In this document: positions 9,346 to 33,335 of the stretch, one piece after another | Numbering within the stretch: position 1 is the stretch's first letter | Layout: every line of letters begins with the position of its first letter | Origin: a virus | Direction: 5' to 3' (one strand) | Length of the DNA stretch: 50,311 nt | IMG/VR virus record: IMGVR_UViG_3300020385_000861 | Span: 1 to 50,311 of that record | Translations under genes and position numbers: made by a program | Notes under the pieces: generated by a model | Seen by the model: only the letters and a program-made list of their open reading frames with translations | What the model was told of the DNA's origin: nothing | Databases searched by the model: none

Positions 9346-10812
9346 ATGAAAAAAGGTTATGTTCCAAAAGATCAACGTAAAAAGATTCTTTTATTATCAG
9401 ATGATATCCGCACAAATAGTGGAGTGGGTACAATGTCAAGACAAATAATTTTAAATACAGCACACCATTTTAATTGGGTAAATTTAGGAGGAGCTATTAA
9501 ACATCCTGAAGCAGGTAAAAGGTTTAATGTATCTAATGATGTAAATAAAGAATCTAATTTAACAGATTCAGATGTAAAAATCATAGCATGTGATGGATAC
9601 GGGGATGCTGCTATATTAAGACAAATTATTGCTCAAGAAAAACCAGATGCTATAATGCATTTTACAGATCCACGTTATTGGATTTGGTTGTATCAAATGG
9701 AAAATGAAATTCGTCAAAACATACCAATGGTATTTTACACTATATGGGATGATGTTCCATATCCAATGTATAATAGAGAATTTTATCGTTCAGATGACAT
9801 GCATCTTTGTATTTCTCGTCAAACAGAAAACATTGTAAAAAATGTTTTAAAAGACCACCCAAAAGAAGATTGGGCTGTAAAATATGTTCCTCATGGTATA
9901 AATAAGGATAAATTTTTCCCTATAATGAATGATTTTAAGTTTGAAGCTTTTAAAGAAGATTTATTAGGTAAAGAAGAACAAGATTTTGTCGTACTTTGGA
10001 ATTCACGAAATATTCGTAGAAAAAATGCATCAGATATTATTTTAGCTTGGAGATTATTTTTAGATCAACTTCCAGATGCTAAAGCTAAAAAATGTACATT
10101 AATAATGCACACAGAACCAATAGACCAAAATGGAACTGATTTACCCGCAGTAGTTGAAAATTTTTGTGATGAAAGGCATAAAGTTATATTTACAAATACT
10201 AAATATGATGAAAAACACCTAAATTATCTTTATAATTGTTCAGATGCCCATATGTTTATGACTGATAATGAAGGTTGGGGATTAGGTTTAACAGAATCAC
10301 TTACAGCAGGTAGAATGATTATAGCACCAGTACAAGGTGGTATGCAAGATCAAATGCGTTTTGAAGACGAAAATGGTGATTGGGTTAAATTTACAACAGA
10401 ATGGCCTTCAAATGCAGATGGACGTTATAAAAAATGTGGAGAATGGGCAATGCCGATGTTCCCCAAAACACGTTCAGTTAAAGGTTCACCATTAACACCT
10501 TACATCTTTGCTTCTCAATGTTCAATTGAAGATGCCGCAGTAACTCTTATGAAAACCTACAAAATGGGTAGAGAAGAAAGATTAAGAAGAGGTATGGCAG
10601 GTAGAGAATGGGTTATGTCCGACGAATCAATGTTTACATCAGAAAATATGGGTCAAAACTTTATAGAAAATTTAAACACTTTATTTGACAAATGGAAACC
10701 ACAACCACGATTCCATTTAGTTAAAGTAGACGACAGCACTATTTTAGATAATCACAACCCAAATCCAATAAGTACAACAGACGAATTTAAAAAAGAAATA
10801 GCAACAATATGA
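9346..10812 (+). CDS. GT4-type glycosyltransferase
   Basis: A 488-residue GT-B glycosyltransferase. The N-terminus (KKILLLSDDIRTNSGVGTMS) resembles the acceptor-side Rossmann start of GT4 enzymes. The C-terminal donor site includes FVVLWNSRNIRRKNA near residue 215 and the EGWGLGLTESLTAG motif near residues 309-322, whose second Glu usually contacts the sugar nucleotide. It is the first gene of the 24-kb glycan block and overlaps the next gene by 4 bases. Its Arg codon use (many CGT) resembles the replication genes, unlike the middle of the block. Confidence 0.85.
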   Translation: MKKGYVPKDQRKKILLLSDDIRTNSGVGTMSRQIILNTAHHFNWVNLGGAIKHPEAGKRFNVSNDVNKESNLTDSDVKIIACDGYGDAAILRQIIAQEKPDAIMHFTDPRYWIWLYQMENEIRQNIPMVFYTIWDDVPYPMYNREFYRSDDMHLCISRQTENIVKNVLKDHPKEDWAVKYVPHGINKDKFFPIMNDFKFEAFKEDLLGKEEQDFVVLWNSRNIRRKNASDIILAWRLFLDQLPDAKAKKCTLIMHTEPIDQNGTDLPAVVENFCDERHKVIFTNTKYDEKHLNYLYNCSDAHMFMTDNEGWGLGLTESLTAGRMIIAPVQGGMQDQMRFEDENGDWVKFTTEWPSNADGRYKKCGEWAMPMFPKTRSVKGSPLTPYIFASQCSIEDAAVTLMKTYKMGREERLRRGMAGREWVMSDESMFTSENMGQNFIENLNTLFDKWKPQPRFHLVKVDDSTILDNHNPNPISTTDEFKKEIATI

Positions 10813-12116
10813 AACCAGTATGCGTAGTATCGTGTCCAATAGACACATTTTCAGGTTATGGAGCAAGATCAAGAGATTTTGTAAGATCATTAATTAAAGA
10901 AAAAGACTCTGAATGGGATATTAAAATTATGCCCCAACGTTGGGGAGATTGCCCTTGGAATTTTTTATCAAAAGATGACCCTTTAAGACAAAGATTTACA
11001 GGACAATTAAGACAAAAACCAGACATTTGGATGCAAATTACAGTTCCGGATGAATTTCAACCAATAGGTAATTTTAATATTGGTATATCAGCGGGTATAG
11101 AATCTACTATATTTCCAGTTAAGTTTTTAGAGGGAATGAATAAAATGAATTTAAATTTAGTTTCATCTCAACATTCTAAAAATGTGGCTCAACAATCAAC
11201 CTTCCAAAAACAATCACAGGGTCAAGTTATAGGTTCAATTAAATTAGAAAAACCATGTGAAGTATTATTTGAAGGTTTAGATTTAGATAAATATTATAAA
11301 AACCCAAATAAAACCTCTATATTAGATGGTGTGGATGAAGAGTTTTGTTTTTTATACACAGGACACTGGTTACCAGGTAAATTTGGTGAAGATAGAAAAA
11401 ATACAGGTTTAATGATTAAAACATTTTTAGAAACCTTCAACACCCCCTCTAAAAAGAAACCTGCATTAATATTAAAGACTAACCATGTTAGTTATTCATT
11501 ATTAGATAGAGAAGAAATACTTAAAAAAATTAATAAAATAAAATCTCAAGTTAAAGGAACTCTACCAAATATTTATCTGTTACATGGTGAAATGACAGAT
11601 AATGAAATGAACGAATTAAACAATGATCCTCGTGTAAAATCATTTGTATCATTCACTAAAGGTGAAGGATTTGGTAGACCATTACTTGAAGCAGCAGTTA
11701 CGGGTAAACCTGTTATAACAACCAACTGGAGTGGCCATACTGATTTCTTACATCCTGATTATAATGTTTTAATAGGTGGTGAATTAAAACCAATACACAA
11801 ATCTGCTGCAAATCAATTTTTATTAAAAGAATCCCAATGGTTCAATATTAATACAGCGATTGCAAGTAGAGCAATGAAAGATGTATTTAATCATTATAAA
11901 AAATACATTGAAAAATCACGCAAACAAACACAATATATTAAGGATAACTTTAGTTTTGATAAAATGGGTGAATTAATAAATAATTTTATGCCTAAAGTAG
12001 AGGCTGCACCCCAAATGCAGCAATTACAATTACCCAAACTTAAAAAAATAGGGGATAATAAATTACCAGAACTTCCAAAATTAAAATTACCAAAACTTAA
12101 AAAAGTAGAAGCATAA
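10809..12116 (+). CDS. GT4-type glycosyltransferase with lysine-rich tail
   Basis: A 435-residue GT-B enzyme. The donor-site motif is FTKGEGFGRPLLEAAVTG near residues 282-299, followed by PVITTNWSGHTDFL. The last ~34 residues are an unusual low-complexity tail built from LPKLKK/LPELPKLK units, which may tether the enzyme to an acidic partner or membrane. The start overlaps the previous gene by 4 bases. Donor and acceptor cannot be predicted. Confidence 0.85.
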   Translation: MKPVCVVSCPIDTFSGYGARSRDFVRSLIKEKDSEWDIKIMPQRWGDCPWNFLSKDDPLRQRFTGQLRQKPDIWMQITVPDEFQPIGNFNIGISAGIESTIFPVKFLEGMNKMNLNLVSSQHSKNVAQQSTFQKQSQGQVIGSIKLEKPCEVLFEGLDLDKYYKNPNKTSILDGVDEEFCFLYTGHWLPGKFGEDRKNTGLMIKTFLETFNTPSKKKPALILKTNHVSYSLLDREEILKKINKIKSQVKGTLPNIYLLHGEMTDNEMNELNNDPRVKSFVSFTKGEGFGRPLLEAAVTGKPVITTNWSGHTDFLHPDYNVLIGGELKPIHKSAANQFLLKESQWFNINTAIASRAMKDVFNHYKKYIEKSRKQTQYIKDNFSFDKMGELINNFMPKVEAAPQMQQLQLPKLKKIGDNKLPELPKLKLPKLKKVEA

Positions 12117-12610
12117 TGGAACAAGGACAAGATAAATTAGTAAACAGTCCTATTTGTGATAGTAATGCATGTTATGAATCCGAATTTACAACAGCAGAAG
12201 GACCTATAAAAACATGGCTTTGTATGACTAGTGGTTATACTTCAAATACTACAATGAAAGCAGACAGTGAAATAGTTAAATTAGCAGAAGAAACAACAGC
12301 AGACTTAATTAGAGATTTAAGACAAGATCATGAACCACCAGGAGGTGGAGATGTGTTGGCTTGGTTTCCTACTGTTATTACAATGCCCGAAAAAGGTATG
12401 ATATTTCCTGAACCAATAAAAGGAACAAAAGATTGGCAATGGACATGTGTAAAAGCAGTTGTAATACCTGAAGAAGAACAAGATAAATATCCTGATCCTA
12501 AAAATCCAGGTACATTCTACAAACACAAAATGGATATGAAAAACCCACTACGTTTTGATAAACTTTGTTTTATGGATGCAGCCGAAGAAATGGGAATGTT
12601 TAAAAAATAA
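12116..12610 (+). CDS. Hypothetical protein between glycosyltransferases
   Basis: A 164-residue protein with three cysteines near the start (SPICDSNACYES, then TWLCMTSGYTSNT) and a Pro-rich middle (DHEPPGGGDVLAWFP). It resembles no enzyme family I can name. The stop of the previous gene overlaps its start by one base (TAATG). The Cys pattern might bind a metal. It could be a phage core protein rather than part of the glycan pathway, since its codon use resembles that of the two genes before it. Confidence 0.65.
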   Translation: MEQGQDKLVNSPICDSNACYESEFTTAEGPIKTWLCMTSGYTSNTTMKADSEIVKLAEETTADLIRDLRQDHEPPGGGDVLAWFPTVITMPEKGMIFPEPIKGTKDWQWTCVKAVVIPEEEQDKYPDPKNPGTFYKHKMDMKNPLRFDKLCFMDAAEEMGMFKK

Positions 12611-12616
12611 AGGTTA

Positions 12617-13261
12617 ATGAAAATAAGTTATGCTATTCCTGTTTGTAATGAACATGAAGAATTAAAAAGGTTATTAAATTTTCTAATTGAAAATATTAGA
12701 GAAGAAGACGAAATAGTAGTTCAATGTGATAAAGGTAATACAACACCTGAAGTATATGAAGTATTAGACCAAATAGATCAATCTTGGCAAAATAACCCAA
12801 TTAAAACCCCTGTTAAAGTCATAGAATTTCCTTTAAATGGTCACTTTTCAAATTTTAAAAATAATTTAAAAGAAAAATGCACAGGTGATTGGATATTTCA
12901 AATTGATGCGGATGAATATCCTGATGAATATTTAATTAATGTGTTGCCCAGTATATTAGAAGAAAATACCGAAACTGAAGTATTTTTAGTTCCTAGAATT
13001 AATGAAGTAATTGGTATAACTCAATCTCATTTAGGTGAATGGGGTTGGAATATGAGTGATAAAGGATGGATTAATTATCCTGATTATCAAATGCGTATTT
13101 TAAAAAATATTCCCGAAATAAGATGGCAAAATAAAGTGCATGAAATAATTAAAGGAAACAAAAACTATTCAGCATTGCCTACTAATAAAGAATATTCTTT
13201 ATGGCATCCTAAAGAAATCACAAGACAAGAAGCCCAAAATAATTTTTATAATACATTATGA
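12617..13261 (+). CDS. GT2-family glycosyltransferase
   Basis: A 214-residue GT-A enzyme. It opens with ISYAIPVCNEHEELKRLL, the usual GT2 nucleotide-binding start, and has an IDADE motif (DXD-like, metal and sugar-nucleotide binding) near residues 96-100. The later MRILKNIPEIRWQNKVHEII is typical of WaaE/KdtX-like GT2 proteins. It ends overlapping the next start by 4 bases. From here to about 30.2 kb arginine is encoded almost entirely by AGA, in contrast to the flanks. Confidence 0.82.
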   Translation: MKISYAIPVCNEHEELKRLLNFLIENIREEDEIVVQCDKGNTTPEVYEVLDQIDQSWQNNPIKTPVKVIEFPLNGHFSNFKNNLKEKCTGDWIFQIDADEYPDEYLINVLPSILEENTETEVFLVPRINEVIGITQSHLGEWGWNMSDKGWINYPDYQMRILKNIPEIRWQNKVHEIIKGNKNYSALPTNKEYSLWHPKEITRQEAQNNFYNTL

Positions 13262-14124
13262 TTTTTTGGAGAATATTAGATAATAAAGTATACCCTATTA
13301 AAGAAGTAAGTAAATTAGGTTTTGATGAATCTGAAGGATTAAGGATCCCTGATGAATATTTAAAACAGCAAAATTTTACAATACTACGAACTACATGGGG
13401 AACAGGAGATTGGGGTATTATTTCATCTATTCCACGATTATTAAAAAATAAATATCCCCAATGTAAAGTTTATGTACCTTCTAATAAATTAATTAAAAAG
13501 TTATTTGATATAGATACAAATGTAATGTATGATATTTTCCAAAATAACCCTTATGTAGATAGTTTTAAAGACGAAATAGAGGGAGAAATATTTCACGACC
13601 ATTATAGAATATATAATTCAAATATTAATACCCCCCTAACAGAACAAATCCTAAAATTTTGGCAATTTAGTGAAGATGAATATAAAGATTCCCAACCAGA
13701 ACTATATTGGTCTAAAGAAGAAAAGGAGTTAGGAGACAAAATAATAAAAAAATATGTAGGGGATAGTGAATTTGGTAGCTTATTAATTTCTGAAAGATTC
13801 GGAACCCAATCTGGGAAATACAATAAATCTAGCTTTATAAATGATAATAAAAAAATAATAAATTTACTTAAAAATAATAAATTACCCTATTTTTGCTGGA
13901 CATATAAACCATTAAACCAATATGATTTTAATTTTATAAATAATATTTTAGATATGCGTAATATGGATTTAAGATTACAACTTTATATAAAATCAAAATC
14001 CAAAATTAATATATCTAACCAATGTGGTACCAACCATTGTGTAGTAAGATATTCAAATGTATATGAAGTACAAAGACAACAAAATTTAAAAATGAATTTT
14101 GTAAAAGGAATAAATTATGAATAA
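13258..14124 (+). CDS. Putative GT9/heptosyltransferase-like protein
   Basis: A 288-residue protein. The segment FTILRTTWGTGDWGIISSIPRLLKNKYP (residues ~39-66) resembles the glycine-rich N-terminal turn of ADP-heptose-type GT-B transferases (GT9), and KVYVPSNKLIKKLF follows as the next strand-helix unit. The C-terminal half ends in a region (SNQCGTNHCVVRYSN) where GT9 enzymes have a donor-binding loop. Similarity is partial, so I am unsure of donor and function. Overlaps its neighbours by 4 and 8 bases. Confidence 0.55.
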   Translation: MIFWRILDNKVYPIKEVSKLGFDESEGLRIPDEYLKQQNFTILRTTWGTGDWGIISSIPRLLKNKYPQCKVYVPSNKLIKKLFDIDTNVMYDIFQNNPYVDSFKDEIEGEIFHDHYRIYNSNINTPLTEQILKFWQFSEDEYKDSQPELYWSKEEKELGDKIIKKYVGDSEFGSLLISERFGTQSGKYNKSSFINDNKKIINLLKNNKLPYFCWTYKPLNQYDFNFINNILDMRNMDLRLQLYIKSKSKINISNQCGTNHCVVRYSNVYEVQRQQNLKMNFVKGINYE

Positions 14125-14809
14125 AAAAGTAATATATACATCTATTATAGGAAAATACGACTCATTAACTGAACCAAAATACATTCCTAAGGGGTATGAT
14201 TTTATATGTTTTACGGATCAAGATATAGATAACCCTAATAGTATATGGGAAATTAGAAAAGTTTTACCCTTATATAAAGATAATACACGAACTGCAAGAA
14301 AATATAAAATCCTCCCTCATAGATTTTTACCTGAATATGATTTAAGTATATGGGTAGATGGAAATGAAATAATAGTAGGAAATGTAGATAAACTCCAAGA
14401 AGAATATTTAAGTAATAAAAATATGGCTGTTTATAACCATATGAGTTGTTGGGATAAACGAAATTGTATTTACGATGAAGCAAAAGCCATATTTTATTTA
14501 GGTAATAAAAATAATAATTGGAAGGACAACCCAAAAATAATAGAAAACCAAATGAATAAATATTTTAAAGAAGGTTACCCTCCTAATAATGGATTAATAG
14601 TTAGTGGAGTTATGTTTAGAAAACATAATAAAAAAGACATTATAGATTGTATGGAATTATGGTGGGAAGAACTTAAATATGGGAGTAAAAGAGATCAATT
14701 AAGTTTTAATTATACTTCATGGAAATGTGGAACTTCATTTAATTGGATTAACCAAGATATTAGGGATGATGGGTATGTTTTAGAAGTTAAACATAATAAA
14801 CATAAATGA
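14117..14809 (+). CDS. DUF616/TOD1-type glycosyltransferase
   Basis: A 230-residue protein matching the DUF616 signature: YTSIIGKYDSLTEPKYIP at the start, DFICFTDQ near residue 29, ARKYKILPHRFLPEYD near residue 60 and SIWVDGN with a metal-binding-type Asp near residue 78. The family contains plant TOD1/MUCI70 and many bacterial LPS-locus proteins annotated as glycosyltransferases. Overlaps its neighbours by 8 and 4 bases, consistent with coupled translation. Confidence 0.8.
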   Translation: MNKKVIYTSIIGKYDSLTEPKYIPKGYDFICFTDQDIDNPNSIWEIRKVLPLYKDNTRTARKYKILPHRFLPEYDLSIWVDGNEIIVGNVDKLQEEYLSNKNMAVYNHMSCWDKRNCIYDEAKAIFYLGNKNNNWKDNPKIIENQMNKYFKEGYPPNNGLIVSGVMFRKHNKKDIIDCMELWWEELKYGSKRDQLSFNYTSWKCGTSFNWINQDIRDDGYVLEVKHNKHK

Positions 14810-15375
14810 AAATAGCTATACATCAACCTAATTTTTTACCTTGGTATCCTTTTTTTCAAAAAATTAAAGAAGTGGATAAGTTTATTATTTTGGGGCATTG
14901 TCAATTTGAGAAAAATGGATTCCAAAATCGTTTTAATTTAGAAGGAAAATGGCATACTATGAGTACCAAAAAAGGATTAGATCCTATTAATACAAAAACT
15001 TATTTAAATTATATAAAAGATTGGAATAAAATTAAAATTAACCTCCCCCAATATGCAACTATATTAAATCAATTAGATGATTGTATTAACGAAAACCTAT
15101 TTATTACTAATTCTCAAATAATAGAAAAACTAACAAAATTATTAGGATATAATACTGAAATTTTATATGATTACCCCACAAACTTAAAATCAACAGAAAG
15201 ACTAGTAGACATTTGTTTAAAACATAATGCTACTGAATATTTTTCGGGTATTAGTGGTAAACAATACTTAGATTTAACTAAATTTAAATCTAAAGGAATT
15301 AAAGTAAACTTCCAAGAAAATTCAACAAATATACACACTTTAGAATTATTAAAAAATGAGCAGAAAAATATTTAG
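14806..15375 (+). CDS. WbqC-like protein
   Basis: A 189-residue protein beginning MKIAIHQPNFLPWYPFFQKI, the WbqC family signature (I-QPxYxPWxGY-type), then KFIILGHCQFEKNGFQNR. WbqC proteins occur in O-antigen loci; a role in sugar transfer or modification is assumed, but the reaction is not established to my knowledge. Overlaps the previous gene by 4 bases and the next by 20. Confidence 0.82.
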   Translation: MKIAIHQPNFLPWYPFFQKIKEVDKFIILGHCQFEKNGFQNRFNLEGKWHTMSTKKGLDPINTKTYLNYIKDWNKIKINLPQYATILNQLDDCINENLFITNSQIIEKLTKLLGYNTEILYDYPTNLKSTERLVDICLKHNATEYFSGISGKQYLDLTKFKSKGIKVNFQENSTNIHTLELLKNEQKNI

Positions 15376-15910
15376 ATTTGATGACATATGCTTAAATGCT
15401 GATATGAAACTTCATATTGATATAGCTAAACATATTAAAAAAGAAATACCATCTGCAGATGTAATATTTTGTATATCTCCTTTGGTACATAATATGTCAG
15501 ATGAAAAAGGAAAAACCCAACAAAGAATCTTCCCTCAAATATTAAATGCACATAGTGATTATAGAAAATTCTATCAAGTAGACAAATGTGGGGTTCCTGA
15601 ATTTCCTGAATGGATAACTAGAGCGGGACATGGGTTAATTCATGTAGATCATCGATTATTAACTAAAGAAACCCAAGAATTAAGTATTTTAACTAGTTGT
15701 AGTTTATCAAAATCATCTATTTTTGTCCCCCCTTTCAATAAATGGGATAAATCCACAGAGGAAATATGTAATGAACATGGTATAAAATTAGTAAAATTTG
15801 AAGATGGTTGGTTATGCTGTGAATATAATGAATATAACCCTAAACATAATTTATGGTACATCCATGCTAGAGAATTTACATTAGATTCATTTAAAACTTG
15901 GTTGGGGTAA
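15356..15910 (+). CDS. Polysaccharide deacetylase-like protein
   Basis: A 184-residue, NodB-fold-like protein. RFDDIC near residue 7 supplies the Asp-Asp pair, AGHGLIHVDHR near residue 83 resembles the HxxxH metal site, and FVPPFNKWDKSTEE near residue 123 resembles the conserved Pro-Pro segment near the active site, followed by YIHAREFTLDSFKTWL. It would remove an acetyl group from an N-acetyl sugar, consistent with a pathway starting from UDP-GlcNAc. It is shorter than typical members (~220-300), so the assignment is moderate. Confidence 0.65.
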   Translation: MSRKIFRFDDICLNADMKLHIDIAKHIKKEIPSADVIFCISPLVHNMSDEKGKTQQRIFPQILNAHSDYRKFYQVDKCGVPEFPEWITRAGHGLIHVDHRLLTKETQELSILTSCSLSKSSIFVPPFNKWDKSTEEICNEHGIKLVKFEDGWLCCEYNEYNPKHNLWYIHAREFTLDSFKTWLG

Positions 15911-15911
15911 T

Positions 15912-16916
15912 ATGAAAAAAATACTATTCATAACAACCCAGTATAGAACAGGAGAAAGAATATATCCTATACTCCCCTCTTTATCTAAAGAGTTTGAAGT
16001 TCACTTATTAAAACTTTACCAAATGGATCCTTCTCATAAATGGCCTGGTAGTTTTGATACAAGAATACTTTTTGACAAAGAATATCTTAAATATTTTACA
16101 CATATTATCCCCACTATAAATGATATATACTATAACGAATATGATTTAATTTTATGTGATGACAATAGATTAACTAAAAAATGGAACTCAGGATATATTT
16201 TTAAAAATAAAATGTGCCCCATGATAGGATGCAGTCATGGAAACACAGACGCAAATTATGTAAATATTCATCATAACAAAGCTTTTAATAAATGTTTTGT
16301 TTTTGGGGAAAAAGAAAAACAACCCCATACTATATTAGGAGGAATACCCTCTAATGATAAATTAAAAAAATACTCTTCAGAAGAAAAAAAACATATACTT
16401 GTTATTTGTAATTTTTTAGGTAATAGACACTGTGAGTTTAAAATATCTTTTAACAAACATTTTTTTAATGAATGTGGTTTATTAGAATTACAAAAAAGAT
16501 ACAATAAAAAAATAATTATTAAGTTAAAAAGCAGAGCAGACGAAGGCGGTTATAAACATAATATAAGTTATTTAAATTCAATTTTGCCTAAGGAATTAGA
16601 CTATGAAATATTAGTAGATGTAGAAGACGACAATTTATTAATAGCACAAAGTTTTATGGTAATATCTGCTCCTTCTACTATGGCCTTTAAACCTTTACAA
16701 TTAAAAATCCCAACAGCTATAATAAATGGTAGTGGCCAAACAGGATTATTTTATGATTTTAAGGGGTTAGTAGAATTAAATAGTAATAAAATAATAAGCA
16801 CCTTAGAAGATCAAATAATAAATCCTGATAAAGATTTTATTTTAAATACTATAGAAGGAGGATTGAATTTTAATTCAACAGAAGTCTTTGTTAAAAAAAT
16901 TAAAAAATTAATATGA
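15912..16916 (+). CDS. Putative GT-B-like transferase
   Basis: A 334-residue protein beginning KKILFITTQYRTGERIYPIL, a Rossmann-like start. The late segment MVISAPSTMAFKPLQLKIPTAII resembles the donor-binding loop of CDP-glycerol/polyribitol transferases and WecB-like folds, where S-T-M-A lies before a Pro-Thr turn. I cannot assign a family with certainty. It starts 1 base after the deacetylase stop and overlaps the next gene by 4 bases. Confidence 0.5.
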   Translation: MKKILFITTQYRTGERIYPILPSLSKEFEVHLLKLYQMDPSHKWPGSFDTRILFDKEYLKYFTHIIPTINDIYYNEYDLILCDDNRLTKKWNSGYIFKNKMCPMIGCSHGNTDANYVNIHHNKAFNKCFVFGEKEKQPHTILGGIPSNDKLKKYSSEEKKHILVICNFLGNRHCEFKISFNKHFFNECGLLELQKRYNKKIIIKLKSRADEGGYKHNISYLNSILPKELDYEILVDVEDDNLLIAQSFMVISAPSTMAFKPLQLKIPTAIINGSGQTGLFYDFKGLVELNSNKIISTLEDQIINPDKDFILNTIEGGLNFNSTEVFVKKIKKLI

Positions 16917-17896
16917 AAGATAGTATAATTATATATGTTTCTTCTTACAACAATTATGATATGTTAGAAGAAGTAGTTTTAAAAAATATAAACACTGAGG
17001 GTTTTGAGTTTATAAATGTAGATGATAATAGTTTTCCAGAAGAATTAGAAAAAGGAAAATCAATATGTAAAAAGCACGGAATACAATGTTTAGAAAATAA
17101 ATCTACAGGAGTGCAAATGGCTACCCAAACAGTAATTGATTTTATAAATAAAAATAGACCTAAATGTAAATGGATAATTTGTTTTCAACATGATAATTGG
17201 CCTCTTAGTAAAGATTTTTTTACTACATTAAATAATATGATCATAAATGGCCCTATTAATGATTATGGTTGTATAGGATTTAATGTATTAGATAATGGTA
17301 AAAATACTAGAATCAATTCTGTAGAAAAATTTAAAAAAGACCTTTTACCCAGAGGCATGTTAGGTCATAGACATTTAAGTTACCTTTCTCCTAAACATAG
17401 ATGGATATCCCCCACCCATAATGATAATATGAGTAAGCACTATCATGAGTCCCATCAAAACAAATATGCATTTATCATAGATATTCCTACATGGGCAGTA
17501 ACAGGGTGGAATATAGAAAAATGGAATAAAATTATAGAACCAACAACAGATTTTAATTTTTTATTTTGGGCTCCTGATCTTATTATGCAATTTGCAAAAA
17601 ACAATATTCCAACTTTATCTATTACTAGTTTATATATTGAAAATTGTCAATCTATTAAAAAGAAGTATAATATCCCCGTCAATTTAACCCATGCTATAAA
17701 AAAAAATAGTAAAAAATATTCTCAAGAAAATTATGGTGAACATCATAAAAATTGGATTAAACGTTGGGGGTGGGATTTTGAAAATCCTGCTAAGACTTTT
17801 CCTAAAGTAAAAAACCAATATAAAAATACATTAATAAACAAACTATGGAAGCATAACTGTTCTTCAGACGCCCCCTATAAAATAATAGAATTATAA
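16913..17896 (+). CDS. GT2-like glycosyltransferase
   Basis: A 327-residue protein with a GT-A-like beginning (DSIIIYVSSYNNYDMLEEVV, then FINVDDNSFP) and WIICFQHDNWPLSKDF near residue 84, where QHDN may replace the usual DXD metal motif. The C-terminal third is basic and aromatic (WIKRWGWDFENPAK). Classification as GT2 is by overall pattern; the missing canonical DXD lowers certainty. Overlaps the previous gene by 4 bases. Confidence 0.6.
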   Translation: MKDSIIIYVSSYNNYDMLEEVVLKNINTEGFEFINVDDNSFPEELEKGKSICKKHGIQCLENKSTGVQMATQTVIDFINKNRPKCKWIICFQHDNWPLSKDFFTTLNNMIINGPINDYGCIGFNVLDNGKNTRINSVEKFKKDLLPRGMLGHRHLSYLSPKHRWISPTHNDNMSKHYHESHQNKYAFIIDIPTWAVTGWNIEKWNKIIEPTTDFNFLFWAPDLIMQFAKNNIPTLSITSLYIENCQSIKKKYNIPVNLTHAIKKNSKKYSQENYGEHHKNWIKRWGWDFENPAKTFPKVKNQYKNTLINKLWKHNCSSDAPYKIIEL

Positions 17897-17898
17897 TT

Positions 17899-19708: not shown

Positions 19709-19744
19709 AACAGCTAACATCTAGGGTAACCCCGCAAAAGAAAT

Positions 19745-23830: not shown

Positions 23831-23831
23831 A

Positions 23832-25207: not shown

Positions 25208-26033
25208 ATTATTAAAAGAGCAAGGTAAGTTAAATATATCAATTGATAAAACTAAAGAGTTTAATTGGAGATATACTAAAATAGCAGGACCCTGTTCTGT
25301 AGAAGGTCCTGAAATAATAGATATTGCTAAAAAAATTAAATCATTAGGTGCAAATGCTTTTAGAGCAGGTGCTTATAAACCATGTACTTACCCTATTTTA
25401 AAAGAGACTAATGGTTGGAAAGAAGGATTAAGAGAAGAAGGACTAAGATTATTACAACAAGTAAAAGAAGAAACTAATCTACCTATTGTAACTGAAGTTA
25501 TGGATGCTAGTATGATAGAAGAAGTATCACAAGTAGCAGATGTATTTCAAATAGGTACTCGAAATTTTCAAAATTATACTTTGTTAGATGCTTTAGGTAA
25601 ATGTAATACCCCAGTTTTACTAAAAAGAGGTACATGGGGTACTATAGATGAAATATTAGGTGCATGTGAACGAATTTTAGTAGGGGGTAATGATAATATA
25701 GCTATATGTTTAAGAGGAGTAGTTGGTATGCCTAATTACAGACATGTATTTCCTACTATTAGATGGGCTCCTGATTTAATGATGATACCTGCATTAAAAG
25801 AATTAACAAATATCCCTATTATATTTGATCCTAGCCACTCAACAGGGTATAGAAATTTTGTAGAACCAATGTCAAAAGCAGCCATAGCAGCGGGGGCGGA
25901 TGGTTTAATAATTGAATGTCATCCTGAACCCGATAATTCAATTAGTGACCCCGCACAAGCAATAGATTACATTACATTAGAAAAAATTTTAAATAGTACT
26001 AAACCAAATAATATGGACAGACGATATGGATGA
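25191..26033 (+). CDS. DAHP/KDO8P-synthase-family 3-deoxy-ulosonate synthase
   Basis: A 280-residue TIM-barrel aldolase using PEP. GPCSVEG (Cys35) supplies the metal-binding Cys, FDPSHSTG the His, and ECHPEPD the Glu and Asp. The overall text (EVMDAS, GTRNFQNYTLL, KRGTWGTIDE, CLRG) is closest to the short Bacillus/Bacteroidota-type DAHP synthase. The E4P-binding KPRT motif reads Lys63-Pro-Cys-Thr here, so the sugar-phosphate specificity may differ. Coupled to a cytidylyltransferase, it likely makes a CMP-activated ulosonic acid and not a shikimate intermediate (inference). Confidence 0.83.
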   Translation: MNEYIKLLKEQGKLNISIDKTKEFNWRYTKIAGPCSVEGPEIIDIAKKIKSLGANAFRAGAYKPCTYPILKETNGWKEGLREEGLRLLQQVKEETNLPIVTEVMDASMIEEVSQVADVFQIGTRNFQNYTLLDALGKCNTPVLLKRGTWGTIDEILGACERILVGGNDNIAICLRGVVGMPNYRHVFPTIRWAPDLMMIPALKELTNIPIIFDPSHSTGYRNFVEPMSKAAIAAGADGLIIECHPEPDNSISDPAQAIDYITLEKILNSTKPNNMDRRYG

Positions 26034-26679
26034 TAATGTAAGTATTATAATTAGAAACAGAAATGAAAATGAATTTATTGGGTTTGCAATCCAATCATGT
26101 TTAGACCATTTTAATAAACCAGAAATTATAATTGTAGACAATAATTCTACAGATGATTCTTTACATACAGTAAATTTATTTAAAGATAGAACTACAATTA
26201 AAATTGTTCCTATTAATGATTATACCCCGGGTAAATCAATTAATTTAGGAGCCAAACACGCTACTAAAGATACAATTTTAGTGTTGTCCGCTCATGCACA
26301 AATTACTCAAGTTGATCTAGAATTAATAGAACTTAATTTAACCCCAGCTGGTAGTGCTGTAGCTGTATTTGGTCAACAAACCCCTATATATAAAGGTAAA
26401 AAAATATCAAAAAGATATATTTGGAGTCATTTTAAAGAAGGACGTGAAATAAATATGTTTTCAAAAATAGAAAACAGACAGTTTTTACATAATGCGTTTT
26501 GCTTTTATAATAGACAATTTCTATTAAATAACCCTATGCCTGAAGATTACTCTACTAAAGAAGACAGATATTGGGCTATAGATATGGTAGATAAAGGATA
26601 TAATTATTATTACAACTCTACACATAAAGCTAATCACTTTTATACATCTAATGGTGCAACTTGGAAAGGAATAGGGTAA
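26026..26679 (+). CDS. GT2-family glycosyltransferase
   Basis: A 217-residue GT-A enzyme. VSIIIRNRNENEFIGFAIQS and IIVDNNSTDDSL are the standard GT2 nucleotide-binding blocks. A LSAHAQI segment takes the place of DXD, and MPEDYSTKEDRYWAIDM near residue 168 contains the ED catalytic-base region. Overlaps the previous gene by 8 bases. Followed by a 43-base AT-rich gap, one of the few breaks in the block. Confidence 0.82.
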   Translation: MDDNVSIIIRNRNENEFIGFAIQSCLDHFNKPEIIIVDNNSTDDSLHTVNLFKDRTTIKIVPINDYTPGKSINLGAKHATKDTILVLSAHAQITQVDLELIELNLTPAGSAVAVFGQQTPIYKGKKISKRYIWSHFKEGREINMFSKIENRQFLHNAFCFYNRQFLLNNPMPEDYSTKEDRYWAIDMVDKGYNYYYNSTHKANHFYTSNGATWKGIG

Positions 26680-26687
26680 TATATTTA
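26680..26687 (+). promoter_or_regulatory. Possible weak promoter -7 box before 26723
   Basis: TATATTTA stands at the start of the 43-base gap before the gene at 26723. A TTGG is present upstream at 26661-26664, but the spacer is 16, not 20, and the base before the box is A, not G. It does not belong cleanly to the promoter set of the flanks. It is the only candidate I see for internal transcription of the glycan block. Confidence 0.25.
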
Positions 26688-26722
26688 AAGATTAATATAA
26701 AAATAACATAACATAAATTACA

Positions 26723-28144
26723 ATGCATTATTCACCTATAAGTTTAGAGTATTTTTTAAATATGGAAATCCAACATGGAGGTGGAGGTAAAGAAATAATC
26801 CACCAAAATGGTAGTTTAACAAAAATACAAGATATTGTTAATTATTTTAAGACACCTCATCATATTAATAAAACCAAATCTGATTTAAATCCCACTAACT
26901 GGCAATACTTTAATTGCATGTTAGCAGAATTTAGACATAATGTTAAAAATCACCATGATTTAGGTTGGGAAAACATGACCGAAGAATATTATAACAGTCT
27001 AACCCCTATGTCAGATTTAGAAATACAACAGTTTTTAAAACAAAATCCCGTAGAATTTGATAATGGTTTTATTAGACATAACTATCATAGAGCATGTGCT
27101 ATGATTGGTAGACTTATTGGGGGTAAATCCTATATCCCTTTCTATATGGAAACTGAGCAAATATACAATAAACCCAGAAAAAAAGATGGAATTCATAGAA
27201 TTAAACCATTAACTAATAAAATTAAATTATTAGAAAAAATGGATAAAATGGGAATAGATAAAAATGATTATTGTTTGACCCAAAGTTCTATTTTAAGTAT
27301 AATGGGTATTAGAGATAATGATGATTTAGATATTATCATTTCAAGTAAATTAAGAAACCAAAATATACAATTTCCTCCTGGTGTGGATGTATTTGCAGCT
27401 AATAGAGGAAAGTTTAATTATTTCGGAGCTAAAGGAGATGATGATATATTAGAAAATTATTGTATTACAATTAATGGTTATAAATTTTTAGAACCTAGAT
27501 TTTATTTTGCTCGTAAAAATAGAACAACTAAAAGAGACATTAATGATTGGAAATCTATAGAATCGTTTTTTAATAATAATAATCATAAAGGACACCCTTT
27601 TAATTTTGATTTTTACAAATGGGGAATAAATTATGTGGATAAAATCCAATATGAGGATTTAGAACACCAAAACAGAGATTTAAAAGTTATTATAAATAAA
27701 TTTAATAGAACAGTAAATAATATATCTCATGGTAGAAATGTTTATTATGATATTAATAACAAAGAATACATCAAAATCTTTAATCTAGATTATTGTCGTT
27801 TAAATAACTTTAATGAAGCTTTGAACTCAGGAATCCTAGTAGGATTATGCCCTGCTTTAAAAACACTAATATATCATGGGGATCAATTAATGGGTTATAT
27901 CTGTCAAGAAGGAAAAGTATGTAATGAAATCCCCCAAGATTTTTTAACTACTATATTAAAAAACTGTAGGAAATGGAATAAAATATATTATGATATAGTA
28001 CCCCAAAATATAATTCAATTACCTAATGGTCAATATAGTCTAATTGATTTAGAAAGTGTTTATGATTTGGATAAATTAGATATATTACCTTATCACAATG
28101 CTCAAATAAAACCCCCAAATCTTTTAGAACTAATAAATAATTAA
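26723..28144 (+). CDS. Nucleotidyltransferase-like plus kinase-like fusion protein
   Basis: A 473-residue protein with three recognisable parts. Residues 1-150 hold IRHNYHRACAMIGRLIGG and IPFYMET, family unknown to me. Residues ~185-270 look like a nucleotidyltransferase: TQSSILSIMGIRDNDDLDII with an Asp-x-Asp pair, then TKRDINDWKSIESFF. Residues ~330-455 look like a protein-kinase/APH fold: YYDINNKEYIKIF (beta-3 Lys), FNEALNSG (helix C Glu), YDIVPQNIIQL (catalytic loop Asp and Asn) and YSLIDLE (metal-binding Asp). Together it could phosphorylate and activate a small sugar or alditol. Interpretation is by motif only. Confidence 0.6.
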   Translation: MHYSPISLEYFLNMEIQHGGGGKEIIHQNGSLTKIQDIVNYFKTPHHINKTKSDLNPTNWQYFNCMLAEFRHNVKNHHDLGWENMTEEYYNSLTPMSDLEIQQFLKQNPVEFDNGFIRHNYHRACAMIGRLIGGKSYIPFYMETEQIYNKPRKKDGIHRIKPLTNKIKLLEKMDKMGIDKNDYCLTQSSILSIMGIRDNDDLDIIISSKLRNQNIQFPPGVDVFAANRGKFNYFGAKGDDDILENYCITINGYKFLEPRFYFARKNRTTKRDINDWKSIESFFNNNNHKGHPFNFDFYKWGINYVDKIQYEDLEHQNRDLKVIINKFNRTVNNISHGRNVYYDINNKEYIKIFNLDYCRLNNFNEALNSGILVGLCPALKTLIYHGDQLMGYICQEGKVCNEIPQDFLTTILKNCRKWNKIYYDIVPQNIIQLPNGQYSLIDLESVYDLDKLDILPYHNAQIKPPNLLELINN

Positions 28145-28145
28145 T

Positions 28146-28910
28146 ATGAATATAGTATTTATCCCTAATATAGATTTAGGAAACAATAGAAACACACCTT
28201 ACCATTATTCTATTTCTAGTTGGAAAAAATGGGCAGAACAATACGATGATGTTGAAGTTATAGAGTGGGATGAAGCTATTATGGATCCTAACCAATTTAA
28301 AATAACATTGCAACGTTATTGGGTTCATGATATATTAAAACATAATGAAGTAGAATATGAACAAGTATTATTAGTGGATGCTGATACTATTATCCATCCT
28401 AATTGTCCTAATTTTTTCAACCAAACAGAAGGTAAATTTGGGGTAACACTTAATAATGGATGTTATGAATGGGTTACTAGAAGTATTAAACAATGGGGAG
28501 ATAATTTATTTACAAATGAACCTAAAGTTAAACCTTGGAAATACTTTAATGGGGGCTTTCAGATAACAAGTAAAAAACATATACCCTTTTATACAAAAGT
28601 CCAAGAATATTATACTAATAACATAAATAAAATAAACCAATTAAATGAACAAATAAAAGCAGGAACCGACCAAACTATTATAAATTATTTGGCTCAGCAA
28701 AATTCTATTGATACAATATATATGCCTGAAGCCTATAATCTTCAAGATTTATTTAGAAAAAACCTTCTATATATTCCAGGACATTCTTGGTTTCCCGATG
28801 ATTTAATATTTTTAGAAGCAGGGTGGATCTATCATTTTAACGCTATACCCCAAAATGATAGACATGTAAATTATTGGATGGAAAGAACATATAAAGAATT
28901 ATATAAATAA
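28146..28910 (+). CDS. GT8-like glycosyltransferase
   Basis: A 254-residue GT-A enzyme. LLVDADTIIHPN near residue 77 has the DXD motif, YFNGGFQITSKKH near residue 137 matches the conserved FNxG substrate block, GTDQTIINYL near residue 174 is the GxDQ motif of GT8-type enzymes, and WIYHFNA near the end holds the C-terminal metal-binding His. This is a good motif set for a retaining GT-A transferase. Its stop overlaps the first copy of an 11-base tandem repeat. Confidence 0.78.
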   Translation: MNIVFIPNIDLGNNRNTPYHYSISSWKKWAEQYDDVEVIEWDEAIMDPNQFKITLQRYWVHDILKHNEVEYEQVLLVDADTIIHPNCPNFFNQTEGKFGVTLNNGCYEWVTRSIKQWGDNLFTNEPKVKPWKYFNGGFQITSKKHIPFYTKVQEYYTNNINKINQLNEQIKAGTDQTIINYLAQQNSIDTIYMPEAYNLQDLFRKNLLYIPGHSWFPDDLIFLEAGWIYHFNAIPQNDRHVNYWMERTYKELYK

Positions 28911-28930
28911 AAATTAAACAAAAATTAAAC
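28909..28930 (+). repeat. Tandem 11-base repeat before methyltransferase gene
   Basis: Two exact copies of AAAAATTAAAC (28909-28919 and 28920-28930) lie between the stop at 28910 and the ATG at 28933. They are probably a slippage duplication of the AT-rich intergenic leader. No promoter box is visible here. Confidence 0.8.
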
Positions 28931-28932
28931 AA

Positions 28933-29541
28933 ATGAAATTAAAAAAACTAGAATCATATAAGGATTATTATGATGCTCAAAACAAAAGAAGTGGGATGAA
29001 AGCATCTCAAATAAATCTTAAATTAATTATGGACTTATTTAATCTTGAATCTGAAGATAAAGATATAAATATTTTAGATATTGGATGCAGAGATGCTACT
29101 GCAGTAAGTTTTTTACATAATAAAGGTTTTAAAAATACTTTTGGTTTTGATATAGGTAAACGAGCTAAAGAAACTTGGGATAGTATATATGATAAAGAAT
29201 TTATAGATAATTATTTAACAATAGGGGATGTTCATAAAGGCATACCATATGACAAGAAATTCCATTTAATATTATCATCACATGTAATAGAGCATTTATA
29301 TGATGCCCCCCAAGCAATAGAACATATGTACACTCATTTAATACCAGGTGGATTTTTATTTACTCAAGTACCTATACAACCTGAAGAAAGATTTTTAAAT
29401 GCTAAGCCCCATTATTATATGTTTGATAATATGAAGGATTATATATCATTATTTGATGATACTAAATTTAAAGTAGTACATCAAGAAGAAGGATTTAAAG
29501 CAGCTAATCCTGAAGCTACATTAGTATTACAAAAGTTATAA
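28933..29541 (+). CDS. SAM-dependent methyltransferase (class I)
   Basis: A 202-residue methyltransferase. NILDIGCRDATAVSFL near residue 44 is SAM motif I, FGFDIGKRA the acidic motif II, HLILSSHVIEHLYDAP the motif IV region, and LIPGGFLFTQVP the motif VI turn typical of Methyltransf_11/UbiE-like enzymes. It probably methylates a sugar or a nucleotide-linked intermediate of the glycan pathway. Confidence 0.85.
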   Translation: MKLKKLESYKDYYDAQNKRSGMKASQINLKLIMDLFNLESEDKDINILDIGCRDATAVSFLHNKGFKNTFGFDIGKRAKETWDSIYDKEFIDNYLTIGDVHKGIPYDKKFHLILSSHVIEHLYDAPQAIEHMYTHLIPGGFLFTQVPIQPEERFLNAKPHYYMFDNMKDYISLFDDTKFKVVHQEEGFKAANPEATLVLQKL

Positions 29542-29543
29542 AT

Positions 29544-30443
29544 ATGAAAATAGCATTTTTCACAGAAGGGGGATACCAAGGCAAAGTACCCAGAAACCAT
29601 CCTAATATGAGAACTGAATTAGCATGGATGTGTGCTTTAAATGCTGATCATTGGAATATAAACCAACCACCTAACCAACAATATGATTTAGGTATTGTTA
29701 TTATACCAAAGAAAAATCCCCAATTTGATTTAAACAAACTAAAGCAATATTGCAACAAAATAACAGTAATGCAAGAGGGACCAAATTGGTATTGGCAAGA
29801 TTATCCTTTAAACCAACAGATATGGTATTATAATACTATTCAAGAAGCCGATTTTATGTTTGTGCATAATGAATTAGATAAAAAGTACTATGAAGGCCTA
29901 ACAGGTAAAGAATGTAAAGTTTTACCTAGTTTAATGATTGAAGATTCTATTAATGATTTACCCCAAATTGAGAGAAAAAATATTATTATAGGAGGAAATT
30001 TTTGTAGTTGGTATGGTGGTTTTGACTCATATATAACCGCACAAGAAGCTGAATGTCCTATTTATATTCCTAGTATGGGAAGAAAGATAGATGGTGAAGA
30101 AAATATGCCCGAATTAAATCATTTATCATATATGAATTGGGTCGAATGGATTAAAACGCTTAATACTTTCAAGTATGGTGTCCATATGATGCGCACGCAT
30201 GCCGCGGGTACATTCGCTTTAAATTGCGCTTATTTAGGTATTCCTTGTATTGGGTATGAAGGTTTGGATACACAAGAAAAATGCCACCCGAATTTAACAG
30301 TTAAGTTAGGAGATTTGGTTTCTGCAAAAGAAAAACTTACATTACTCAAAACAGATAAAGATTTTTATAATGAATGTACTTTTTCTGCAAAAGAAAATTA
30401 TTTAAGGTATAATGAAAAAACTTTTATAGATAAATGGAAATAA
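29544..30443 (+). CDS. Putative GT-B-like glycosyltransferase
   Basis: A 299-residue protein. MKIAFFTEGGYQGKVPR resembles the start of GT-B transferases. The C-terminal half (YGVHMMRTHAAGTFALNCAYLGIPCIGYEG) resembles their donor domain, with a conserved Gly-Thr before a Pro-Cys turn. The sequence from ~30170 to 30230 uses codons rare elsewhere in the block (CGC, ACG, GCC, GCG), giving a local GC rise inside an AT-rich gene. Overlaps the next gene by 10 bases. Confidence 0.55.
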   Translation: MKIAFFTEGGYQGKVPRNHPNMRTELAWMCALNADHWNINQPPNQQYDLGIVIIPKKNPQFDLNKLKQYCNKITVMQEGPNWYWQDYPLNQQIWYYNTIQEADFMFVHNELDKKYYEGLTGKECKVLPSLMIEDSINDLPQIERKNIIIGGNFCSWYGGFDSYITAQEAECPIYIPSMGRKIDGEENMPELNHLSYMNWVEWIKTLNTFKYGVHMMRTHAAGTFALNCAYLGIPCIGYEGLDTQEKCHPNLTVKLGDLVSAKEKLTLLKTDKDFYNECTFSAKENYLRYNEKTFIDKWK

Positions 30444-31672
30444 GTTTAATACAACCTGGAAGAAATAATCTTAAGTATCTTAAATGGTCTTATGATTCAA
30501 TTAGAAGAAACCAAGGCAACCACGAAGTAGAAATATGTGTTGCAGATGATTTTTCAAATGATGGTACTTGGGATTGGTGTCAAGAAATGATGGAAAAAGA
30601 TCCATTATTTAAAGCAATTAGAAATGAAGGACCTACACGTTTAGGTCATACAATTTTATATGACACTTTAGTTAATGAAGTAGCTACAAAAGATATTTGT
30701 ATGATTTACCATGCAGATATGTACTTAATGCCAAATGCTATGGATTCAATTGAAAAACATCTTATAGATAAAACAATTGTATCACTTACTAGAATAGAAC
30801 CACCACTTCATCCAGATGGTCCCGAAAAAATCCTTATTGATTTTGGAATTGAGCCTGAAGAATTTAGAGAAGATGATTTATTAGAATGGTTTACTAAACC
30901 AATTGACTCAACAGGTGGGTATCAACCTAAACATGATAGTCCTACTGAAGGTATATTTGCACCTTGGGCGTTTTATAAAAAAGATTTTCAAGAAATAGGG
31001 GGTCATGATCCCATATTTGCCCCACAATCAAAAGAAGATACTGATATATTTAACCGTTTTCAATTAAATGGAATCAAATTTATTCAAACATGGGAAGGAT
31101 GTGTTTATCATATGACTTGTAGAGGTAGTAGATTTGCTGATGGGGCAAAACGAAATCCTAATGGTGATGTGTTTATGAAAAATAGAGAAACAGATGAATG
31201 GTTAAAACAAAATCAAAAATCAACTAGAGAATTTTTACGTAAATGGGGTCATTATTGTAAGCATGATCCTTTAATGAAACCAATTATACCACCTAAATAT
31301 GATATTGGTTTTATAATTAAAAATTGTAATGATCAATTACTAGCAACTTTAGAACCATGGTGTAGTAATATTTATGTGGATGAAGGAAATATCCCCTCAA
31401 TGATTGATAATTACATAACATTAGAATCCCCAAATACAAATTTTGATTTATATGAAAGAATAAGACTTTTTGATGATAAAAAAAATAATGAAATTCTAGT
31501 TACAATAGATGGTAATAGAGTTACACAACAAGATTTTCAATATATTCAACAATTATCTGAAATATTAGCTGATAGTGGTGAACCAGGATTTCATGGTGAG
31601 TTAGGAAATTTAGTAGTTGAAATATTTGAAACAATGAATACATTTGAAAAAGAATTAATATGCGTATCTTAG
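30434..31672 (+). CDS. GT2-family glycosyltransferase, long form
   Basis: A 412-residue protein. The first ~230 residues are GT2 (EISLIQPGRNNLKYLKWS, CVADDFSNDGTWDWCQ, MIYHADMYLMPNAM with a HADM metal site, then FAPWAFYKKDFQEIGGHD). The last ~150 residues (from IGFIIKNCNDQLLATLEPW) form a second domain I cannot name. CGT arginine codons reappear here, as in the genes before 12.6 kb. It ends overlapping the next start by 13 bases. Confidence 0.78.
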   Translation: MEISLIQPGRNNLKYLKWSYDSIRRNQGNHEVEICVADDFSNDGTWDWCQEMMEKDPLFKAIRNEGPTRLGHTILYDTLVNEVATKDICMIYHADMYLMPNAMDSIEKHLIDKTIVSLTRIEPPLHPDGPEKILIDFGIEPEEFREDDLLEWFTKPIDSTGGYQPKHDSPTEGIFAPWAFYKKDFQEIGGHDPIFAPQSKEDTDIFNRFQLNGIKFIQTWEGCVYHMTCRGSRFADGAKRNPNGDVFMKNRETDEWLKQNQKSTREFLRKWGHYCKHDPLMKPIIPPKYDIGFIIKNCNDQLLATLEPWCSNIYVDEGNIPSMIDNYITLESPNTNFDLYERIRLFDDKKNNEILVTIDGNRVTQQDFQYIQQLSEILADSGEPGFHGELGNLVVEIFETMNTFEKELICVS

Positions 31673-32487
31673 TAACAGGTGGTGCTGGTTTTGTAGGCAC
31701 AAATCTAATAAAGCGATTAGTATCACAAGGACATAAAGTTACATCTTATGACAATTATACTACAGGTAAGAAAGAAAATCATATTGAGGGGTGTGATTAT
31801 TACGATGTTGATATAACAACATGTACCTTTGAAGTTGATTTTGATATTGTTTTCCACATGGCGGCAATAGCTAGAATACAACCTTCATTTGAACACCCTG
31901 AAAAATATATTGATGTAAATTTTAATGGAACTTATGAAATAGTTAAATATTGTTCTAAAAATAATATTCCTTTAATATATGCGGGTAGTTCATCACACCA
32001 TTCAGGTAAATTTAAAAACCCTTATACATTTAGTAAAGATTTAGGAGAAGAAATTATTAAATTATATCAAGAACATTTTAATTTAAAGGCATCAATAGCT
32101 AGATTCTATAATGTATATGGTCCTTATCAACTAACAGAGGGGGGTTATACTACATTGATTGGTAGATGGTTAAAAAATATTGAGAAAGGGTTACCTTGTG
32201 AAATATACGGAGACGGTAGTAAACGAAGAGACTTTACTCATGTAGATGATATTATAGAAGCTTTAATTAAGATAGTAGATAGAGAGAAGTATGGGTACAT
32301 ATTTGAATTAGGCAGAGGAAAAAACATTACAGTTAACGCCGTAGCTAATCTGTTAAATATTAAACCAATTTATAAAGCAGATAAACCTGGAGAAGCGTTT
32401 GCAACTTTAGCTGATAGAACAGAAGCAAGATTACATTTAGAATGGGATGCAAAAATTAATTTAGAAGATTATATAAAAACATTATGA
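31660..32487 (+). CDS. NAD-dependent epimerase (GalE/UDP-glucuronate epimerase-like SDR)
   Basis: A 275-residue extended SDR. RILVTGGAGFVGTNLIKRL is the GxxGxxG NAD site, AGSSSHHSGKFKNPYTFSK holds the Ser and the Tyr-xxx-Lys pair, and FYNVYGPYQ and EIYGDGSKRRDFTHVDDI are the conserved substrate blocks. It is shorter than GalE (~330), with reduced loops. The UDP-glucose dehydrogenase gene overlaps it by 4 bases, so a UDP-glucuronate epimerase or decarboxylase role is plausible. Confidence 0.87.
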   Translation: MRILVTGGAGFVGTNLIKRLVSQGHKVTSYDNYTTGKKENHIEGCDYYDVDITTCTFEVDFDIVFHMAAIARIQPSFEHPEKYIDVNFNGTYEIVKYCSKNNIPLIYAGSSSHHSGKFKNPYTFSKDLGEEIIKLYQEHFNLKASIARFYNVYGPYQLTEGGYTTLIGRWLKNIEKGLPCEIYGDGSKRRDFTHVDDIIEALIKIVDREKYGYIFELGRGKNITVNAVANLLNIKPIYKADKPGEAFATLADRTEARLHLEWDAKINLEDYIKTL

Positions 32488-33335
32488 AAATAGGAATAGT
32501 AGGAAGAGGATTTGTAGGATCCGCAGTAGAATTTGGGTTTTCTGCCCAAACAGGTTGTGATGCTAAAGTAAGGGTTTATGACAAAGATCCTTTAAAAAGT
32601 ATTCATACATTAGAAGAAACAATCAATAAATCAGATTTTATATTTTTATCAGTCCCCACTCCCTCTAACCCAGATGGTAGTATGCATTTAGGGATATTAG
32701 AATCTGCTTTACAAGAAATACAAGCAGTAAATAAAAGAAAAAATAATATTATATTAATTAGGTCTACTGTTATACCAGGTACAACAGATAAATTATGTAA
32801 AAAATTTACTAAATTAAATATGGTATTTAATCCTGAATTTTTAACAGAACGTTCAGCTAAATTTGATTTTATTAATCAATCAAGATTTGTTTTAGGTGGA
32901 AGAAAACGGAATACAGGAAGAGTAGCAGAATTATACAGATGGAGATTTGGTGACAGTGTACCCTGTATTGAAACTAATTTTAATACAGCAGAAATGATTA
33001 AATATATGAATAATTGTTTTTTTGCTACAAAGGTATCATTTATGAACGAAATGAAGCAAATAGCAGATAAGACAAATATAGACTGGGATATGGCAGTTGA
33101 AGGTTTTGTAAGAGATGGCAGAATAGGTCATTCACATTTAGCTGTACCGGGACCCGATGGAAGGGGTGGCTTTGGGGGTTCATGTTTCCCTAAAGATGTT
33201 CAAGCAATGATTAATTTTGGGGATCAGTTAGGTTTAAACATGAATACTTTAAAAGGTATTTGGAATACTAATTTAGAAGTAAGACCCGAACGTGATTGGG
33301 AAGAGCTAAAAGGCCGCGCAATAATAAACCAATAA
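32484..33335 (+). CDS. Short UDP-glucose/UDP-sugar 6-dehydrogenase
   Basis: A 283-residue protein of the UDPG/GDP-mannose dehydrogenase family. KIGIVGRGFVGSAVEFGF is the NAD site, STVIPGTTDKL and FNPEFLTERSA are typical blocks, and GGSCFPKD carries the catalytic Cys234, with Lys173/Asn177 upstream (TAEMIKYMNN). Normal members are ~390-450 residues; this one stops after the central helix and lacks the C-terminal UDP-binding domain. It may still act as a short form, or depend on a partner. Last gene of the glycan block. Confidence 0.85.
   Translation: MKIGIVGRGFVGSAVEFGFSAQTGCDAKVRVYDKDPLKSIHTLEETINKSDFIFLSVPTPSNPDGSMHLGILESALQEIQAVNKRKNNIILIRSTVIPGTTDKLCKKFTKLNMVFNPEFLTERSAKFDFINQSRFVLGGRKRNTGRVAELYRWRFGDSVPCIETNFNTAEMIKYMNNCFFATKVSFMNEMKQIADKTNIDWDMAVEGFVRDGRIGHSHLAVPGPDGRGGFGGSCFPKDVQAMINFGDQLGLNMNTLKGIWNTNLEVRPERDWEELKGRAIINQ

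Follow-up and report, generated by a model that had tools for sequence, protein, structure and literature searches.

Precedents exist: T4-like phages can carry large glycan gene clusters, mycobacteriophages can have glycosylated virions, and chloroviruses glycosylate their capsids in the cytosol. For cyanophage P-SSM2, a 15-gene glycan cluster has been published (PMC7824862). Chlorovirus capsid protein receives its glycans in the cytoplasm from enzymes that the virus itself encodes (PMC7019647, PMC4691112), and mycobacteriophage virions carry glycans on capsid and tail proteins (Freeman 2023, via PMC12619734). The literature searched, which left most subscription journals outside, contained no account of a fixed core exclusive to phages and combined with swappable rare-sugar cassettes.

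We analyzed a stretch of DNA of 50,311 bases (the window), which is a whole IMG/VR record and a linear fragment, the remainder of its own phage genome lying outside the data. As originally predicted, it contains 27 consecutive same-strand genes, present in the ORF list as tightly packed ORFs at 9346-33335, all on the + strand. We consider it the best explanation, with a probability of about 0.55, that T4-like phages have a modular glycan locus common to the whole lineage, of which this island is one allele, and that the locus is devoted to virion-protein glycosylation in the cytosol, with a core and a swappable outer glycan. The locus belongs to T4-like viruses of aquatic bacteria, and its nearest cultured member infects Flavobacterium. 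The Flavobacterium phage vB_FspM_immuto (immuto) was the best cultured match both for GroEL of the window (61%) and for the first island protein, G1 (53%). A T4-like origin suits the window's genes for GroES, GroEL, a clamp loader, UvdE and an Hsp20-like protein.

An IMG/VR scan with G1 gave at least 600 matching stretches, of which the best 80 loci were kept. The locus and its core were common to these 80 and immuto: directly after a PD-(D/E)XK nuclease come, in this order, a GT4, a second GT4, a zinc-ribbon protein and a GT2 (G1-G2-G3-G4). In the following list, G1 to G27 are the island genes, and counts refer to those of the best 80 loci with room on the contig. Elsewhere, labels of the type G001 denote IMG/VR records of relatives, and labels of the type L005 denote loci or contigs.

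7017-7931, + strand: PD-(D/E)XK nuclease, conserved left flank, upstream of G1 in 51/52 loci
9346-10812, + strand: core G1, GT4 glycosyltransferase by family, motif and fold, phage-restricted by distribution
10809-12116, + strand: core G2, GT4 glycosyltransferase with invariant E-x7-E and conserved basic tail, adjoining G1 in 57/57 loci
12116-12610, + strand: core G3, zinc-ribbon protein of unknown fold, in 37/38 loci
12617-13261, + strand: core G4, GT2 glycosyltransferase (Pfam PF00535), in 37/38 loci; its end is the start of cassette exchange
13258-29541, + strand: variable cargo G5-G23, by family searches WbqC, WecB, WlbA, DAHP/KDO8P-synthase family, cytidylyltransferase-like, SDR, glycosyltransferases, methyltransferase and unknowns, nearly all without counterpart in relatives
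29544-32487, + strand: right module G24-G26, a putative glycosyltransferase, a GT2 (30434-31672) and an epimerase (31660-32487), recurring in immuto, L029 and L186
32484-33335, + strand: G27, UDP-sugar dehydrogenase without C-terminal domain (Pfam PF03721 and PF00984 only)
34811-35185, + strand: right-boundary 124-aa protein, with homologues at the right end of relatives' islands
35852-36496, + strand: right-boundary HNH-type protein, likewise with homologues at the right end of relatives' islands

Family searches supported seven island glycosyltransferases. G1 and G2 were each under the Pfam cut-off, yet their E-x7-E motif was kept without exception in about 42 sequences of each; GT2 proteins at 12617, 26026 and 30434 were over the cut-off, the one at 16913 was under it, and ORF 14117 is a TOD1/MUCI70-type glycosyltransferase. 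The "about ten" originally counted would require some of ORFs 13258, 15912, 28146 and 29544, for which no relevant family was matched. Enzymes proposed for UDP-ManNAc, an oxidised sugar and methylation were all recovered, namely WecB (18689, exceeding the NCBIfam cut-off), WlbA/WbpB (19745, matching PDB 3oa2 with E 6e-80, and with only remote matches among phages) and a methyltransferase (28933). Also supported were WbqC (14806), two SDR epimerase/dehydratases and a 2-hydroxyacid dehydrogenase. Other assignments lost ground. The CMP-activated 3-deoxy acid keeps a synthase of the DAHP/KDO8P family, with DAHP synthase as the better match (E 1.6e-54) and KDO8P synthase as the poorer one (5.6e-21), and a short cytidylyltransferase-like protein (186 aa) whose match is confined to its N-terminal part. 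For the uronic acid step, the match of the UDP-sugar dehydrogenase (283 aa) covers only the first two domains of its family. The hydroxylase had a sub-threshold 2OG-Fe(II) match (E 0.003), and the supposed deacetylase (ORF 15356) matched no family. A PHROGs search with ten island proteins gave no match, and the MBL-fold protein at 20611 had neither a PDB match by sequence nor a phage homologue. The GC content was 0.268 in the cargo versus 0.306-0.314 in core and flanks.

The assignment of G1 to GT4 is based on a GT-B fold and the E-x7-E motif (model and alignment), the predicted structure being a confident GT4 fold (pLDDT 91). Its best match by both sequence and fold was chlorovirus NY2A B736L (3oy2; E 3.8e-12 and 6.1e-15), ahead of numerous other GT4 proteins; this match does not reveal the substrate. 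The G3 model was likewise confident (pLDDT 95) and had no match in the PDB; in BFVD, the one convincing match was an uncharacterised phage protein. By eye against homologues, G3 of the window (12116-12610) has lost two of four otherwise conserved zinc-ribbon cysteines. The C-terminus of G2 (11997-12113) is a repetitive basic tail, LKLPxLKKIELPKL, common to G2 homologues, which could be a docking peptide.

The G1 family is phage-restricted, judging from its distribution: the search of GTDB gave no more than five MAG contigs with it, of which four have phage flanks and the fifth starts inside G1. A tblastn search of 50,697 phage records with G1 and G2 recovered immuto, Microcystis phage Mel-JY01, Rhodothermus phage RM378 and an uncultured phage, besides distant matches such as one in S-CBS4. 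Mel-JY01 has the order nuclease-IMPDH-G1-G2-G4, followed by a short cargo. In RM378, G1 is followed by a protein weakly similar to G2 (28% over 85 residues), without cargo. The core spans phages whose hosts belong to different phyla, with Flavobacterium (immuto), Microcystis (G1-G2-G4) and Rhodothermus (G1 and a G2-like protein). Among its relatives, the window is most similar (G1 74%, GroEL 77%) to a phage contig that had been assigned to a "Pelagibacter" MAG; a Woesearchaeota MAG and a Flavobacteriaceae MAG also contain phage contigs of this kind (L184, L187, L188).

Most fully readable islands end on the right with a homologue of the 124-aa protein, the HNH-type protein or both. From G1, this boundary lies about 10.8 kb away in immuto, 12.3 kb in G003, 14.6 in G007, 15.8 in G013, 17.4 in G012, 18.1 in G015, 21.1 in G002, 22.1 in G001 and 25.5 in the window, and in G008 similarity to G013 is back only after 31.6 kb. 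With islands of 11-32 kb at the same locus in relatives, and the published P-SSM2 cluster (PMC7824862), the island is large but not exceptional, contrary to the claim that such a scale is unusual. Misassembly of bacterial and phage DNA, named earlier as a possible flaw, is excluded since both junctions were found again in independent contigs: G5 and G6 also follow G4 in L005 (74% and 52%), and the right module recurs in immuto and in L029 and L186.

The records G001-G003 encode a T4-like set (terminase, portal, prohead protease, capsid, sheath, baseplate, helicase) and therefore look near complete. The G006 record (loci L159-L164) seemingly has two related GroEL-glycosyltransferase core regions, at about 12-33 kb and 57-77 kb, which would stem from a duplication or from two phages having been joined. 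Genes for 7-deazaguanine DNA modification (QueC/D/E/F, FolE, DpdA) are widespread in the clade, for example at 18607-37015 in immuto, and absent in G001 and G004. Near the right boundary of the island and beyond, small proteins (34007-34264, 34277-34804, 34811-35185, 40237-40695) have recurring motifs at their N-termini (LLKERFQELAGIK, LLTERFQKLAGIK; LIREELNEE, FIREAIEEN), reminiscent of the sequences that target T4 internal proteins to the capsid; the motif ERFxxLAGI was not found in 17 other genomes.

The fixed four-gene core had been overlooked in the original prediction, as had the wholesale exchange of the cargo. Relatives share the locus, core and boundaries, while their cargo is nearly all different. 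The immuto locus (MW353175, 49172-59988) has the same core order, the same boundaries, and the right-end epimerase (60%) and GT2 (47%) of the window. It differs in its length (11 kb) and in its cargo, which includes WecE-type aminotransferases; 2 of 8 cargo genes have a window counterpart at 40% or more. At the DNA level, G015 and G021 are 88-94% identical as far as the last bases of G4, have almost no similarity past it across 13.7 versus 11.1 kb, and return to 91% identity just before the right boundary. Their core proteins are 90% identical, yet at 40% identity just 1 of 18 cargo genes can be paired. For G008 and G013, the cores are 81% identical and none of 33 cargo genes is shared. Over all pairs of 12 islands, a counterpart was found in 6.8% of comparisons, and 103 of 191 cargo genes had none in any other island. 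Because closely similar cores coexist with so little shared cargo, and because the DNA similarity stops where G4 ends and returns close to the right boundary, we conclude that the cargo is swapped as a block by cassette exchange between conserved flanks. By its families, the cargo of relatives is rare-sugar chemistry again: among 136 ORFs from nine relatives were 24 epimerase/dehydratases and 10 DegT aminotransferases, besides RmlC, FdtA, TPP enzymes, glycosyltransferases and methyltransferases.

The claim that the island codes for no obvious membrane protein was confirmed, as none of its 27 ORFs has a hydrophobic segment at the usual transmembrane threshold (maximum KD19 1.42); a TM-rich ORF lies just outside (7944-9086). 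The proposed lack of export and polymerisation machinery extends past the window to the complete genomes of immuto, Mel-JY01 and RM378 and to three relatives of 170-183 kb. The flippase family PF01943 was found in 0/25 records, complete immuto included, and the WbaP-type initiating transferase PF02397 in 0/10. For the WecA-type PF00953, six phage records gave no credible match, RM378 having only a sub-threshold, stop-interrupted one. We also counted transmembrane segments independently of families in all ORFs of at least 70 aa, with genuine Wzx (10-11 segments) and WecA-type enzymes (8-9) as controls. In the relatives' records, five or more segments were predicted only for tape-measure-size proteins in immuto (150801) and Mel-JY01 (36514) and for a 167-aa ORF in G021. 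Membrane-crossing machinery is absent from the genomes that could be read. What defines a Wzx/Wzy- or ABC-dependent locus (flippase, polymerase or ABC permease, and polyprenyl-phosphate initiating transferase) was not found in these readable genomes, the window's own being a fragment. What was found is a set of virus-encoded glycosyltransferases and sugar enzymes without secretory machinery, as in autonomous cytosolic virion glycosylation.

Since no membrane-crossing genes were found, the sugar coat is probably built inside the cell on the phage's own particles. In the proposed mechanism, the fixed core (two GT4, the zinc-ribbon protein and a GT2) would build a conserved inner or linker glycan on a cytosolic acceptor provided by the phage, most likely a virion surface protein. 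The cargo would supply rare sugars and the transferases for a variable outer part, and replacement of this nucleotide-sugar and glycosyltransferase block as a unit, by recombination between the conserved flanks, would yield virions differing in coat "serotype". The benefit of such a coat might be protection, adsorption or escape from recognition, which is conjecture. We infer with slightly better than even confidence that the core enzymes act on a virion protein. A phage-supplied protein is favored as the acceptor because the core is phage-restricted and common to phages infecting hosts of different phyla, and because the group's phages, with as much as 32 kb of sugar genes, encode no membrane step at all. 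Further support comes from the chloroviruses, the source of B736L, the best match of G1: they show that a complex glycan can be assembled on a viral capsid protein in the cytoplasm by the virus's own enzymes (PMC7019647). Counted against a glycan on the virion is the position of the island, which is surrounded by replication genes and distant from structural genes.

Alternatively, the enzymes may modify lipid-linked O-antigen or capsule intermediates of the host, whose own flippase, polymerase and ligase would finish and export them, so that the surface of the infected cell is altered and other phages are blocked. Published work interprets the glycan genes of cyanophages and pelagiphages in this way (PMC7824862, PMC7029224). 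The cargo does resemble O-antigen sugar chemistry, and an undecaprenyl-linked acceptor requires no phage membrane protein if the host performs the membrane steps. We nevertheless consider this alternative unlikely, though it deserves to be taken seriously: none of the group's phages contributes a membrane step, and the phage-restricted core is common to Flavobacterium and Microcystis phages, whose hosts should differ in surface glycans.

Modified bases of phage DNA, shielded from nucleases by the glycan, are a very improbable acceptor. There are phage glycosyltransferases with DNA as their known substrate, replication genes surround the locus, and many relatives encode 7-deazaguanine DNA modification. 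Base-modification genes are, however, missing from several core carriers, which makes DNA, offered originally as an alternative acceptor, unlikely: Mel-JY01 and RM378 have neither thymidylate-synthase/hydroxymethylase homologues nor DpdA/Que genes, the former are also missing in G002, G003 and G004, and the latter in G001 and G004. PF00303 was found in 5/25 records, none of them Mel-JY01 or RM378, and the thymidylate synthase of some relatives was rejected as a general link to modified DNA. These searches for PF00303 and DpdA/Que gave no consistently co-encoded base hydroxymethylation or other modified acceptor base; a Tet/JBP search matched nothing, its controls being silent as well. To our knowledge, DNA glycosylation needs far less than a 20-gene rare-sugar cargo. 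Finally, that the cargo genes are metabolic genes captured for a time, unrelated to one another and not serving a common product, would agree with its differing among all islands, but is highly implausible for genes that are swapped as a block between fixed boundaries and consistently belong to sugar chemistry beside a conserved glycosyltransferase core.

Virion glycosylation, our preferred reading, can be taken a step further, to a virion "serotype" locus of a widespread aquatic T4-like clade in which a phage-exclusive linker-glycan core and exchangeable cassettes give phages that are otherwise close relatives different coats, made in the cytosol without lipid carriers; we put this forward tentatively, at somewhat less than even odds. 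Should the virion carry the glycan, the surface antigens of waterborne phages would be exchangeable, as in bacterial serotypes, and would be made by a compact glycosylation system without lipid carriers. In that case, immuto on Flavobacterium LMO8 would be a cultured model for cytosolic rare-sugar protein glycosylation. It would also offer a testable alternative to the standing assumption that "LPS genes" of marine phages modify the host surface.

Compared with described systems, the island shares with P-SSM2-type LPS clusters that it is a large multi-gene cluster for glycosyltransferases and nucleotide sugars in a T4-like phage, polymorphic between relatives (PMC7824862). It differs in that no G1 or G2 homologue was found there (tblastn, 50,697 phage records) and in its fixed four-gene core, which the accessible part of that paper does not describe. 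With the chloroviruses (PBCV-1 Vp54; NY2A B736L, the best PDB match of G1), it shares virus-encoded glycosyltransferases and sugar enzymes, which act there in the cytoplasm on a capsid acceptor; cassette exchange is not described in the accessible part of the source (PMC7019647). The chlorovirus host is eukaryotic, and the acceptor is known there, whereas here a virion protein is the probable acceptor. The mycobacteriophages with glycosylated virions reportedly have few glycosyltransferases and no large rare-sugar cassette, unlike the island. Like bacterial O-antigen and capsule loci, the island has a variable sugar block between conserved flanks that is replaced by recombination; unlike in those loci, no flippase, exporter or initiating transferase was found, and the conserved part consists of the glycosyltransferases themselves.
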